Of a stretch of DNA of 49,395 bases, positions 15,255 through 19,229 are shown in pieces. The stretch comes from Candidatus Elulimicrobium sp. (GTDB taxonomy: Bacteria; Patescibacteriota; Minisyncoccia; Phycocordibacterales; UBA918): contig DZBU01000006.1 of NCBI GenBank assembly GCA_022730015.1, forward strand, positions 1 through 49,395, read 5' to 3'. The notes under the pieces are model-generated. The model was not told where the DNA came from, did no database searches, and saw only the letters and a program-made list of their open reading frames with translations. The stretch's first letter is position 1. Each line of letters opens with the position of its first letter. A program made the position numbers and the translations under genes.

Positions 15255-17570
15255 ATGGACGTTTTTTCAATTCTTAGTCTTCACGACATTTATTTAGTAG
15301 TATTTTCGATTGCGTTAGCGCTGGGAACTGGCGCTGCCTTTCTAAGTGGCGCACTTCTGATAACGGTACTGCAAGATCGTAAATTATCGATCGATGAGTA
15401 CAAGGTCATCACCAACGGAAGAATGGTGATCTGGGCGAGCGTATTCTTGTATGCCTTGTCAGGCATTGGGTTGTTCACACTCTCATATGAAGCGATGTTA
15501 TCGCTCGGTATCTTTCAGGCCAGCATGGTCGTGTTTGGAATTTTGGTGATCACGCAGCTTGTCACGCAGTACTATTTCTTGCCACGACTACACCCAGAAC
15601 ACTTTGAATCAACAGCAAACACTCTCATTATCTTTACCTTCCTTGAAGTCGTGTCAGTGGCTTCGTGGTTATTTTTGGTTTTGCATCATGCCGTCTATCG
15701 CGCGCCGATCAGTTTTTGGTTGGCCCTAAGTTTGTATCTAGCGACGATACTTTTTGTCGGATACCTCTATACGTCCATCATTAGACATCTTCTTGCGGAA
15801 GCGCAGCGACGGACTTCAGTGGTTCTTGCTGTTGTGGTCGGAGGATTGCTTCTGGTGACTCTGAGTGCATACTATCTCTCTGGTGCGAAAGATGATTCCT
15901 CCGTTATTCCGACTACGTCAGCAGTGAGCAGTGAGCAAGAAGCTGTTACTGGATCAGCCGGTCCAGCTACCTTCACCTGGAAGGAGATCGAAGGGCATGC
16001 TCATATAGAAGATTGCTGGGTGGTCATTAAGGGAAATGTCTATGACGCTACCCCCGCAGCCGAAAAATTTCCTGACCTATACCAGTGTGGTACCGACATA
16101 AGTGTTGCGTATGCTGAAATCAAACCCGAAGGAATTAGCGAACGGGTTGCCTCGTACCAGATCGGTTCAGTCGGATACACGCTTGAGGATCTGGTGAGGC
16201 ACAACAAGAAAGATGATTGTTGGCTCGCCATCGACGATATGGTATTTGATGCTACTCCGGAAGCAAAATTGCATCCAGCGGCTTTTAATTGTGGAGAAGA
16301 AGTTTCAGATAACTATCACCGCAATCATGGAGACGGCGTGAGCGAAAAGATGATGCGTTTATACATTGGTCGGATCGATGATGGAAGCGAAACAATACCG
16401 GACGGAAATCCAGTCCAAGAGCGAGCCGAACTCAAGCCATACGCAGAATTGTATGTAGAAGCAGGGAGTTGGGAAAATCATGAGCTCATGGTGATCGTCG
16501 AAAAAGACGCCGAGAAACTCGTCTTCATGGATGGCAAGACGCACGAGGTGTTAGGTCGTATCCATGACATTGGTTTCCAGCCACACACTTCGGTCTACTC
16601 ACCAGACGCTCGCTACATGTACATCATCGCCCGTGACGGTTGGCTGACCAAGATCGACCTCAATACTCTAGAGCCTATAAAAAGTGTTAAGGTTGGCGAA
16701 AACTCACGCGGTACAGCGCTTACTGAGGATGGCAAGTATCTCGCTATTGGTAATTACGCGCCTGGCAATGTGGTGATGATGGACGCAGATACGCTGGAAA
16801 TTCTCAAGACCATTCCAACAGTCGGAGAGCTTGATGGTAAAGAAGTTGAATCTCGTGTAGGTGCGGTTATTCAAAAAGACAACCACATTATCATTGCGCT
16901 TAAAGATCTTAACAGTGTCTGGGTGATCGATGCTAACAACACATCCTTTGAAGTGATTGAGAAGTACTGGAACCTTGGTGATGGCCAGACCCCGCTTCAT
17001 GATGCGTACTTAACACCAGACGGAAAATACTACCTCGTGGCTGTTATGGGTGCGAACAAGGTATGGGTGCTCAACACTGAAACTTGGGAGAAGGTGGCAG
17101 AAGTAAAAACTGGTATCACGCCACATACCGGACCTGGAGCGACGTGGGGCACCACCACCTACGTACCAGCGATCGGGGAGGGGTTGATCACTGCCATCGA
17201 CACGGTTACCTGGGAACCAAAAGCATACATCAAAACCGGTGGCCCAGGGCTCTTCGTTCGCTCCTATCCAAAAGATCCTACCTATCCGTACGTGTGGGCA
17301 GACACTGCTTTTGGAGACCATCATGATGAGATCTATGTGATCGATGCGCGTTCCAATGAGATCGTCGAGACTATCAAACCTGTTCCCGGAGAAAGTTCAT
17401 GGCATCCAGAATTCACACTCGATGGACAGTTTGTATACGTCGTGTCACAAACCGCCAACGAGATCGAAGTGTACGACGCCCATGATTTCTCACTCGTAAA
17501 GCGCATCGAAGCCAATACTCCATCAGCCGTGTCGAATGTTGGACTGCGTATTGAAGAGCCGGGTTTGTAA
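15255..17570 (+). CDS. Membrane protein: N-terminal multi-TM domain + two cytochrome b5-like domains + cytochrome d1 (NirS/NirF)-like beta-propeller
   Basis: TM segments 1-~210; FTWKEIEGHAHIEDCWVVIKGNVYDATP and YTLEDLVRHNKKDDCWLAIDDMVFDATP; propeller with PHTSVYSPDARYMYIIARDGWLTKIDL, PHTGPGATWG, GGPGLFVRSYPKDPTYPYVWADTAFG. Confidence 0.85.
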   Translation: MDVFSILSLHDIYLVVFSIALALGTGAAFLSGALLITVLQDRKLSIDEYKVITNGRMVIWASVFLYALSGIGLFTLSYEAMLSLGIFQASMVVFGILVITQLVTQYYFLPRLHPEHFESTANTLIIFTFLEVVSVASWLFLVLHHAVYRAPISFWLALSLYLATILFVGYLYTSIIRHLLAEAQRRTSVVLAVVVGGLLLVTLSAYYLSGAKDDSSVIPTTSAVSSEQEAVTGSAGPATFTWKEIEGHAHIEDCWVVIKGNVYDATPAAEKFPDLYQCGTDISVAYAEIKPEGISERVASYQIGSVGYTLEDLVRHNKKDDCWLAIDDMVFDATPEAKLHPAAFNCGEEVSDNYHRNHGDGVSEKMMRLYIGRIDDGSETIPDGNPVQERAELKPYAELYVEAGSWENHELMVIVEKDAEKLVFMDGKTHEVLGRIHDIGFQPHTSVYSPDARYMYIIARDGWLTKIDLNTLEPIKSVKVGENSRGTALTEDGKYLAIGNYAPGNVVMMDADTLEILKTIPTVGELDGKEVESRVGAVIQKDNHIIIALKDLNSVWVIDANNTSFEVIEKYWNLGDGQTPLHDAYLTPDGKYYLVAVMGANKVWVLNTETWEKVAEVKTGITPHTGPGATWGTTTYVPAIGEGLITAIDTVTWEPKAYIKTGGPGLFVRSYPKDPTYPYVWADTAFGDHHDEIYVIDARSNEIVETIKPVPGESSWHPEFTLDGQFVYVVSQTANEIEVYDAHDFSLVKRIEANTPSAVSNVGLRIEEPGL

Positions 17571-17573
17571 TTT

Positions 17574-19229
17574 ATGTACATGAGTAGCTCCCTCCCAGCA
17601 CCAATGCCAGACGTCTTCAAAGGTGAGATCGACACTTCAGATGCCACCCTTAAGACCTGTAGCGAAGATACAAGTATCTTCAGCGTTCGGCCCAAGGTCG
17701 TGGTCTATCCCAAGGATGTTGCTGATCTGTATACATTGATCCACTATGTGCATCAACATCGTGGTGCGTTATCGCTCACCGCGCGCTCGGCTGGTACCGA
17801 TATGTCAGGTGGTCCACTCACTGATTCGGTCGTGGTTGATTTTACAAAACACTTCAATCGCATTCATCGTGTAAGCGGAACAAGTGCCATCGTAGAGCCA
17901 GGGGTATTTTACCGGGACTTTGAGCGCGAGACACTCAAACATAATGCGCTCTTGCCGAGCTATACCGCTAGCAAAGAGCTTAATACGGTGGGTGGGATGG
18001 TGGCCAATAATTCTGCTGGTGAAAAGTCGCTCACGTACGGAAAGACTGAACGCTATACGCAGGAACTCAAGGTCGTCCTGCAAGATGGCATCGAATACAC
18101 CTTTCGCAAACTAAACCGAGCTGAACTCGAGGCAAAAAAAGCCCAGTCTGATTATGAAGGGGAAGTGTACCGCAGAGTTGAGTCACTCATTCAGGCGCAC
18201 TGCGATGCCATCGTAGCCGCTAAACCACAGGTGACCAAAAATTCAGCGGGCTACGGTATCTGGAATGTTTGGGATAAGGAGGCTGATACCTTCGACCTCA
18301 CGCAGCTTTTTGTTGGTTCCCAGGGAACACTCGGCCTTGTCAGTGAGATAACTTTTGATCTCGTGCAGCCAAAGACTCATTCTCGTATGTTGGTACTGTT
18401 CTTGCGAACATGGCATTTTGAACACCTCGGTAAGATCGTCAATGTGGTACTAAAAGAGAAACCAGAAAGTTTTGAATCGTATGACGATAAGACCTTCAAT
18501 GTGATGCTTCAAGTTTTTCCGAAGCTTTTCAAGCGATTGGGAGGAAACCCTTTCAAACTGGCACGTGATTTTTGGCCAGAGATCAAAATGGTACTGACAG
18601 GAGGGATCCCTAAGCTGGTGTTGATGGCAGAATTTTCAGCCGATTCAGATGCCGAGGCGGCAGCTGTGGCACAGCGTGCTGAGCAGGCGGTCAAGCAAGA
18701 GTACGATATCGTAACCCACGTCACGGAAAGTCAGGCCGAAGCCAATAAGTTCTGGACCATCAGACGGGAAAGCTTCAAGCTGCTCCGCGAGAATGTTCGT
18801 GGCAAGCACACAGCGCCATTCATTGATGACATGGTGGTGGCACCACAGTACCTACCAGAATTCCTACCACGACTGTATGAAATACTCGATGAGTACAAGC
18901 TTATCTACACGGTAGCCGGACACGTGGGTGACGGAAATTTCCACATCATTCCGCTCATGGATTACTCGCGTCCAGATTTTGTCGACATCATCAACGACCT
19001 TTCTGATCGAGTGTATACGCTTGTTGGTGAATACCACGGTTCTATCACTGGTGAACACAATGACGGATTGATCCGCACTCCGTATCTGCATAAGATGTTT
19101 TCAAAAGAGGTATTGGGTATCTTCCAGGAGATCAAAGAGATCTTTGATCCACACCGGATCTTCAATCCGCACAAAAAAGTTGACCCCAAACCAGAGTTAC
19201 TCAGGCAAGCTGTTAAGCGAATGACGTAA
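17574..19229 (+). CDS. FAD-linked oxidase, D-lactate dehydrogenase/GlcD family
   Basis: PCMH-type VVYPKDVADLYTLIHYVHQH...LTARSAGTDMSGGPLTDSVVVD, GGMVANNSAGEKSLTYGKT, C-terminal VAGHVGDGNFHIIPLMD and GEHNDGLIRTPYL. Confidence 0.9.
   Translation: MYMSSSLPAPMPDVFKGEIDTSDATLKTCSEDTSIFSVRPKVVVYPKDVADLYTLIHYVHQHRGALSLTARSAGTDMSGGPLTDSVVVDFTKHFNRIHRVSGTSAIVEPGVFYRDFERETLKHNALLPSYTASKELNTVGGMVANNSAGEKSLTYGKTERYTQELKVVLQDGIEYTFRKLNRAELEAKKAQSDYEGEVYRRVESLIQAHCDAIVAAKPQVTKNSAGYGIWNVWDKEADTFDLTQLFVGSQGTLGLVSEITFDLVQPKTHSRMLVLFLRTWHFEHLGKIVNVVLKEKPESFESYDDKTFNVMLQVFPKLFKRLGGNPFKLARDFWPEIKMVLTGGIPKLVLMAEFSADSDAEAAAVAQRAEQAVKQEYDIVTHVTESQAEANKFWTIRRESFKLLRENVRGKHTAPFIDDMVVAPQYLPEFLPRLYEILDEYKLIYTVAGHVGDGNFHIIPLMDYSRPDFVDIINDLSDRVYTLVGEYHGSITGEHNDGLIRTPYLHKMFSKEVLGIFQEIKEIFDPHRIFNPHKKVDPKPELLRQAVKRMT

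Follow-up and report, generated by a model that had tools for sequence, protein, structure and literature searches.

Nitrite respiration by heme enzymes has so far been associated with cytochrome c and a dedicated pathway for heme d1 synthesis. Within the candidate phyla radiation (CPR), NirK is already known in Kaiserbacteria (PMC5581439) and a nirS annotation has been mentioned for Saccharimonadia (PMC12577380); our literature searches, of partial coverage, retrieved no paper joining the terms 'cytochrome d1' and 'candidate phyla radiation'. Here, we analyzed computationally a gene of Candidatus Elulimicrobium sp. that couples a membrane domain and two domains of cytochrome b5 fold to a d1-type propeller, within a stretch of 49,395 nt (the window). 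We lean modestly toward interpreting its product as a cd1-type nitrite reductase at the cell surface, fed by cytochrome b5 and using a scavenged tetrapyrrole, with both cofactor and activity being inferred. Should this hold true, a d1-type enzyme with b5 electron entry, in a cell devoid of cytochrome c and of a d1 pathway, would broaden the definition of nitrite reductase genes, add a heme-type route to the NirK known in CPR bacteria, and render an interspecies hand-off of cofactor directly testable. Searches relying on models of the cd1-type, cytochrome-c-containing NirS could overlook such proteins or wrongly label them NirN, NirF or NirS.

The b5-d1 fusion is a genuine gene with scattered CPR relatives

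The open reading frame has no internal stops, and its domains are mapped in Table 1. Pfam assigned residues 407-762 to Cytochrom_D1 (PF02239; E 1.1e-76, 258 bits versus a cut-off of 25.5), a match spanning positions 2-365 of 368, i.e., the whole model. Two Cyt-b5 (PF00173) stretches also scored above the cut-off, the better one at residues 309-373 (E 1.1e-14). Relatives at 58-70% identity are encoded in five further genomes of this GTDB family, one of them named Candidatus Kaiserbacteria HKST-UBA29. This recurrence of the same full-length fusion in other genomes rules out an assembly chimera, as does the similar G+C content of the fusion gene and its flanking genes, and the gene is thus genuine.

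Table 1. Coordinates of the fusion gene, its domains and key residues, and the adjacent dehydrogenase gene (positions in the window).
Feature	Position	Strand	Basis
Whole gene: membrane domain, b5-like domain 1, b5 domain 2 and d1 propeller (771 aa)	15255..17570	+	ORF, Pfam, homologues
Six predicted membrane helices, residues 1-211	15255..15887	+	Predicted
b5-like domain 1, residues 240-304	15972..16166	+	Pfam and alignment
b5 domain 2, residues 308-374	16176..16376	+	Pfam and alignment
d1-type eight-bladed propeller, residues 404-771	16464..17567	+	Pfam, structure search, trees
H444, equivalent to P. aeruginosa NirS His182 (axial heme d1 ligand)	16584..16586	+	Alignment
H582, equivalent to NirS His327 (substrate His)	16998..17000	+	Alignment; Asp in NirN, Tyr in NirF
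H624, equivalent to NirS His369 (substrate His)	17124..17126	+	Alignment
FAD-linked 2-hydroxyacid dehydrogenase (D-lactate / D-2-hydroxyglutarate / glycolate family)	17574..19229	+	ORF, Pfam, homology

Samples of about 390-400 genomes each from the phylum, class or order added G284, G487, G627, G638, G813, G928 (two copies), G973 and G1109, bringing the set to 15 proteins from 14 CPR genomes. Full-length propeller matches are rare, with only 2 to 5 genomes per sample, the window's own included; a scan of genome contigs returned a single relative. The proteins adopt three architectures: six helices followed by one or two b5 domains and d1 (type A); a single anchor, one b5 and d1 (type B; G627, G973 and G1109); and a single anchor, an unassigned domain and d1 (type C; G928). 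At both type C loci (L224:1038-2651 and L223:4356-5981), an N-terminal domain of the pattern HVHLYIN...HIDPLPKGEH takes the place of b5, and it had no convincing Pfam match.

The propeller belongs to the d1 superfamily and retains the three active-site histidines

Sequence comparison with solved structures ranked NirN first (E 2.6e-58), followed by NirF (E 7.7e-44) and NirS (E 1e-21), with a YVTN surface-layer propeller far weaker (E 1e-10). A Foldseek search with the AlphaFold model of residues 298-771 recovered NirN, NirF and NirS in this same order, and superposition on NirF yielded an rmsd of 3.0 Å over 365 columns, with 27% identity in the fold alignment. In a tree including seven CPR rows, the CPR propellers formed one clade (98/96) beside NirF and NirS+NirN. 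In the tree with all 15 CPR rows, 96% of bootstrap replicates kept them together on one side of a branch, although support for that branch was UFBoot 56 / SH-aLRT 94. The split separating NirS, NirN, NirF and the CPR propellers from YVTN, YncE and lactonase propellers was supported at 99/98 and 100/100 in the first and second tree, respectively, which, together with the scores, rules out a generic YVTN/lactonase propeller. NirS rows formed a clade (100/100) free of CPR rows, placing the latter outside it, and the trees likewise set them outside the NirN and NirF clades. The CPR propellers therefore belong to the d1 superfamily (PF02239), within which they stand apart from NirS, NirN and NirF as a group of their own. 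Sampling of other phyla was thin, and these trees leave the donor lineage open.

We then aligned the propellers to NirS, NirN and NirF from annotated plasmids, reading residues according to the roles described for the P. aeruginosa NirS active site (PMC7278500). H444, H582 and H624 account for all three histidines of the NirS d1 site and are invariant in the 15 CPR proteins, including the one at the NirS His327 position, where NirN carries Asp and NirF Tyr. The axial His of NirN was shifted by one column within VHGG in a second alignment, the first being in register. Among the NirS arginines that hold d1, Arg198 is retained (R460), the Arg156 equivalent is Lys in 12 of 15 proteins and Arg in the remaining three, and the Arg372 equivalent is Pro in all 15. 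As a result of the latter two substitutions, the pocket may hold a tetrapyrrole other than d1; this altered environment of the d1 side chains is the real peculiarity of the propeller.

A single b5 domain is expected to bind heme

The b5-like domain 1 retains its cysteine pair (C254/C278) and has lost both heme-ligand histidines, with Phe/Tyr and Pro/Glu at the ligand positions, so that it fails the requirement for two axial His. It is missing altogether from G001, G813, G638 and G284, and we regard it as a dead copy as far as heme binding is concerned. Domain 2 meets the definition of a cytochrome b5, namely a PF00173 fold match plus two axial His (H340 in HPAA and H358 in NHG), heme binding itself being inferred. 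These histidines align with the ligands of canonical membrane-anchored b5 from other CPR genomes, and five residues are deleted between H340 and C346, after the first ligand. Its cysteine pair (C322/C346), in the DCW/CG context, is common to canonical CPR b5 and to Ectothiorhodospira cytochrome b558 (PDB 1cxy). In b558, this pair forms a disulfide. Every type A and type B protein has a single b5 that carries both ligand His, following the motif HPxxF.CG...NYxxNH, and the His-less copy is variably present among relatives; the conserved unit of these two types is therefore one functional b5 joined to d1. The full-length AlphaFold model was poor outside the propeller and a second one was no better in the b5 part, so we make no claim on b5-d1 geometry.

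These results bear on the original prediction, which was made from the sequence alone. The proposed fusion of a membrane domain, two b5-like domains and a d1 propeller was upheld, as was the lack of an N-terminal cytochrome c domain: CxxCH was absent from 15 of 15 homologous proteins. The claim that one of the two active-site His was not obvious failed, since H582 and H624 are both present in addition to axial H444. The two b5-like domains held with regard to fold, only one being expected to bind heme, and the assignment of candidate ligand histidines solely to the second was correct. Neither outcome that would have refuted the prediction, i.e., clustering of the propeller with YVTN/lactonase proteins or failure of the b5 segments to match PF00173, was met.

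The b5 and d1 domains are predicted to face outward

Loops 1-2, 3-4 and 5-6 of the six-helix domain are the ones rich in K/R in each of the seven sequences inspected. This distribution of positive charges predicts that the N terminus and the b5 and d1 domains lie outside the membrane, which would make them surface-exposed and membrane-anchored. The only family resemblance of the membrane domain is a weak likeness to DUF2214. Its relatives are stand-alone CPR proteins, plus one fused to VKOR; when heme ligands within this domain were considered, the histidines of the stand-alone relatives proved not to be retained in the fusion studied here. The VKOR protein (L013:1456-2463 in G083) carries the membrane domain behind the VKOR domain, hinting at a possible redox role for this unnamed membrane family. 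Two further matches of similar frame length (G284:C4 and G273:C92) are perhaps of the same kind.

The fusion, a FAD dehydrogenase and NirK are linked pairwise

A FAD-linked 2-hydroxyacid dehydrogenase gene, most similar to D-lactate, D-2-hydroxyglutarate and glycolate dehydrogenases, lies 3 bp downstream of the fusion gene on the same strand, and the two likely form one operon. Members of this dehydrogenase subfamily (>=62% identity) flank the fusion in G000 (the window's genome), G003, G006 and G026, upstream in two cases and downstream in the other two. In G011, G015, G023, G025, G030 and G032 the same subfamily flanks instead NirK, above the TIGR02376 cut-off in all six, with two small genes intervening in G023. 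Across 39 genomes of the genus, the dehydrogenase occurs in 14, NirK or d1 in 12, and both in 10 (hypergeometric p 8e-5, an optimistic value because the genomes are related). The third pair is provided by two genomes. In G638, a type A gene is directly followed by NirK on the + strand (TIGR02376, 301 bits versus a cut-off of 296; N-terminal part in another frame); in G928, a gap of 26 bp separates a type C gene from a downstream NirK-like gene, which scores 178 bits, below the cut-off. A reverse-strand frame beside the G638 fusion was discarded as NirK. Thus, dehydrogenase-d1, dehydrogenase-NirK and d1-NirK neighborhoods link the three genes pairwise.

This linkage is not universal. In the family to which the window belongs, all six carriers, the 99%-complete G001 included, are without a NirK above the family cut-off, and in G001, G039, G813, G627 and G487 neither the dehydrogenase nor NirK nor a DoxX-like partner was found nearby. 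We also discarded the idea that NirK and d1 exclude each other within the genus, as the effect was not significant (p 0.35) and G638 holds both. A DoxX-like gene adjoins the d1 fusion instead in G973 and G1109, where these membrane proteins stand beside type B genes (L221:8984-9433 and L222:5279-5644); a more distant copy occurs near the G284 fusion (L050:4587-5000).

Two side observations concern the NirK neighborhoods. CPR NirK proteins at L134, L135, L136 and L143 start with a hydrophobic stretch, probably membrane helices, and the FAD dehydrogenase adjoins them, a layout compatible with a possible membrane-bound dehydrogenase-NirK pair. An ArsR-type regulator, 58-78% identical across CPR genomes and often accompanied by a PNPOx-type protein, is found beside ribonucleotide reductase and sometimes NirK (L138:679-1476 in G023, L204 in G001, L206 in G026, L050 in G284, L205 in G039 and L197 in G027). 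Its presence with PNPOx near the G023 NirK and the G284 fusion was considered as a nitrite linkage and downgraded, because the regulator goes with ribonucleotide reductase in G001, G026, G027, G039 and G284; the co-occurrence p was 0.014. It could conceivably be a redox or NO regulator.

The genome lacks recognizable genes for heme and heme d1 synthesis

We searched the genome rebuilt from its stretches (775,052 bases, 90.6% complete) using proteins from E. coli, Pseudomonas, Roseibium and Thermus as queries, HemF not being among them. Control proteins such as PrfA, HU, Adk and PrmC were matched. No match was obtained in this rebuilt genome for heme synthesis (HemA, L, B, C, D, E, N and H), heme d1 synthesis (NirE, D, L, G, H and J), cytochrome bo, bd and heme-copper oxidases, CcmB and CcmC, or NapA and NapC; CcmA matches were generic ABC ATPases. 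Matches to NorV, NorW and Hmp were weak (E 8e-4 to 1e-6) and of partial coverage, that of Hmp being to a flavocytochrome on contig C14. Ferrochelatase, COX1 and NirJ above its cut-off were also absent from the six other carriers searched, including the 99%-complete G001.

The C14 gene (G000:C14:4682-7045, L058) encodes a ferric-reductase/NOX-like transmembrane flavocytochrome b (PF01794 plus FAD and NAD domains), and it adjoins a gene for a membrane-anchored double cytochrome b5 with HPGG. The genome therefore encodes b-type heme proteins despite having no recognizable heme synthesis, and this pair may constitute a route for electrons from NAD(P)H to the surface, as inferred from gene content. 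The earlier remark that no heme or d1 genes were visible in the window thus held and now extends to the rebuilt genome and, for ferrochelatase and NirJ, to seven carrier genomes. The description of the cell as presumably fermentative was incomplete, since the genome also encodes this NAD(P)H ferric-reductase-like protein and its double-b5 neighbor. It remains puzzling that a cell with no recognizable heme or d1 synthesis should contain a chain of this kind.

Proposed function and rival explanations

In the model that we favor, a disulfide-containing cytochrome b5 would replace the cytochrome c electron-entry domain of a cd1-type enzyme. Electrons would be supplied by the FAD 2-hydroxyacid dehydrogenase, by the NAD(P)H ferric-reductase-like flavocytochrome b, or by both; they would cross the membrane to the outer-face b5 (H340/H358), and pass from there to a tetrapyrrole held in the propeller by H444. 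By analogy with NirS, H582 and H624 would bind and protonate nitrite, whose reduction to nitric oxide would serve as an electron sink or for detoxification, the NO being left to neighbors as proposed for CPR NirK (PMC5581439). Since synthesis of heme and heme d1 is not recognizable in this cell, the tetrapyrrole, d1 or another heme, is presumed to be scavenged from neighboring cells. What the data show are the domain composition, the conserved residues, the position in the tree, the gene linkage and the absence of recognizable cofactor genes; the cofactor, the reduction of nitrite to NO and the electron path are inferred. A b5 suits a cell without cytochrome c maturation because it binds heme non-covalently, and the predicted outer-face topology fits both the b5 disulfides and the periplasmic location of NirS.

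Nitrite reduction is supported by the retention in all 15 proteins of the three NirS d1-site His, among them the one that separates NirS from NirN and NirF, and by the pairwise linkage with the dehydrogenase and NirK. Against it stand the need for cofactor import, with no importer identified, the invariant Pro at the Arg372 position and frequent Lys at that of Arg156, the redundancy of a second enzyme where NirK adjoins the d1 protein, the pairwise scores, nearer to NirN than to NirS, and the statistically non-significant absence of NirK from the d1 carriers of the genus. In a bolder reading, which we take as one joint claim and lean slightly against, the CPR proteins would constitute a d1-family branch of their own, the fourth: a b5-d1 nitrite reductase that dispenses with cytochrome c maturation, made by ultra-small CPR bacteria obtaining all their tetrapyrroles, possibly including heme d1, from neighboring cells, and evolutionarily exchangeable with NirK beside the same dehydrogenase.

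Other explanations appear less convincing. The protein could serve NirK-type nitrite metabolism without reducing nitrite, as an electron-transfer or NO/nitrite-binding partner kept after NirK loss. The d1 gene directly beside NirK in G638, the NirK-like gene in G928 and the b5-less G928 type with another N-terminal domain point that way, but the lack of NirK above the cut-off in all six own-family carriers, the 99%-complete one included, and the three catalytic His conserved throughout, which a mere carrier would not need, make this unlikely. It is similarly improbable that the propeller holds scavenged heme b or another tetrapyrrole as a heme-dependent reductase of O2, NO or another oxidant, or for heme storage. 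The genome offers no d1 source, two of the d1-holding arginines are replaced, one throughout the family and the other in most of it, and an oxidant sink would be useful where no oxidase was found; however, the linkage is to nitrite reductase genes rather than to heme-uptake or oxygen genes, and the NirS-specific substrate His is retained.

NirN and NirF being the best pairwise matches, a d1-biosynthesis-type protein acting on d1 precursors might be envisaged. This we consider very unlikely: NirE, NirDLGH and NirJ were not found in the genome, none of seven carriers has NirJ above the cut-off, the His occupies the position of the NirN Asp and NirF Tyr, and there is no NirS to receive the product. 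Finally, a cofactor-free structural or adhesive surface protein, whose resemblance to d1 enzymes is merely inherited, would accord with the absence of cofactor synthesis, the poor AlphaFold models of the b5 part and a first b5 copy already without ligands. We consider it quite unlikely, as 15 proteins from distant CPR families retain every candidate metal-ligand His in the propeller and, where present, in b5 domain 2, while b5 copy 1 drifted.

Comparison with known systems

With NirS, the window protein shares the eight-bladed d1 propeller, the axial and both substrate His, the extracytoplasmic location (predicted here) and a fused heme domain for electron entry. It differs in having b5 instead of cytochrome c, a membrane anchor, Pro at the Arg372 position, its own tree branch and no nir biosynthesis genes in its genome. 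We therefore propose that it works like NirS, although it does not qualify as one: it has no cytochrome c domain, falls outside the NirS clade and comes from a genome without recognizable d1 synthesis genes. NirN, a dihydro-heme d1 dehydrogenase, is the best match in sequence and fold (W463, N500 and H717 are shared), but the window protein has His rather than Asp at the His327 position, no cytochrome c domain and no d1 pathway. NirF also has a d1-type propeller, with Tyr at the position of this His. CPR NirK (PMC5581439 and the genomes studied here) comes from the same lineage, has the same neighboring FAD dehydrogenase and is probably membrane-anchored, yet it is a copper enzyme of unrelated fold. 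The chimeric c-c-NirS nitrite reductases of Chloroflexi (PMC8756737) similarly fuse a lineage-specific extra electron-transfer domain to the d1 propeller; these chimeras retain cytochrome c domains, whereas the CPR proteins have b5 and no cytochrome c. Ectothiorhodospira vacuolata b5/b558 (1cxy) shares the b5 fold, and its DCW and CG cysteines and first ligand His align with those of the window b5, which differs by the five-residue deletion following that ligand and by its fusion to a d1 propeller.
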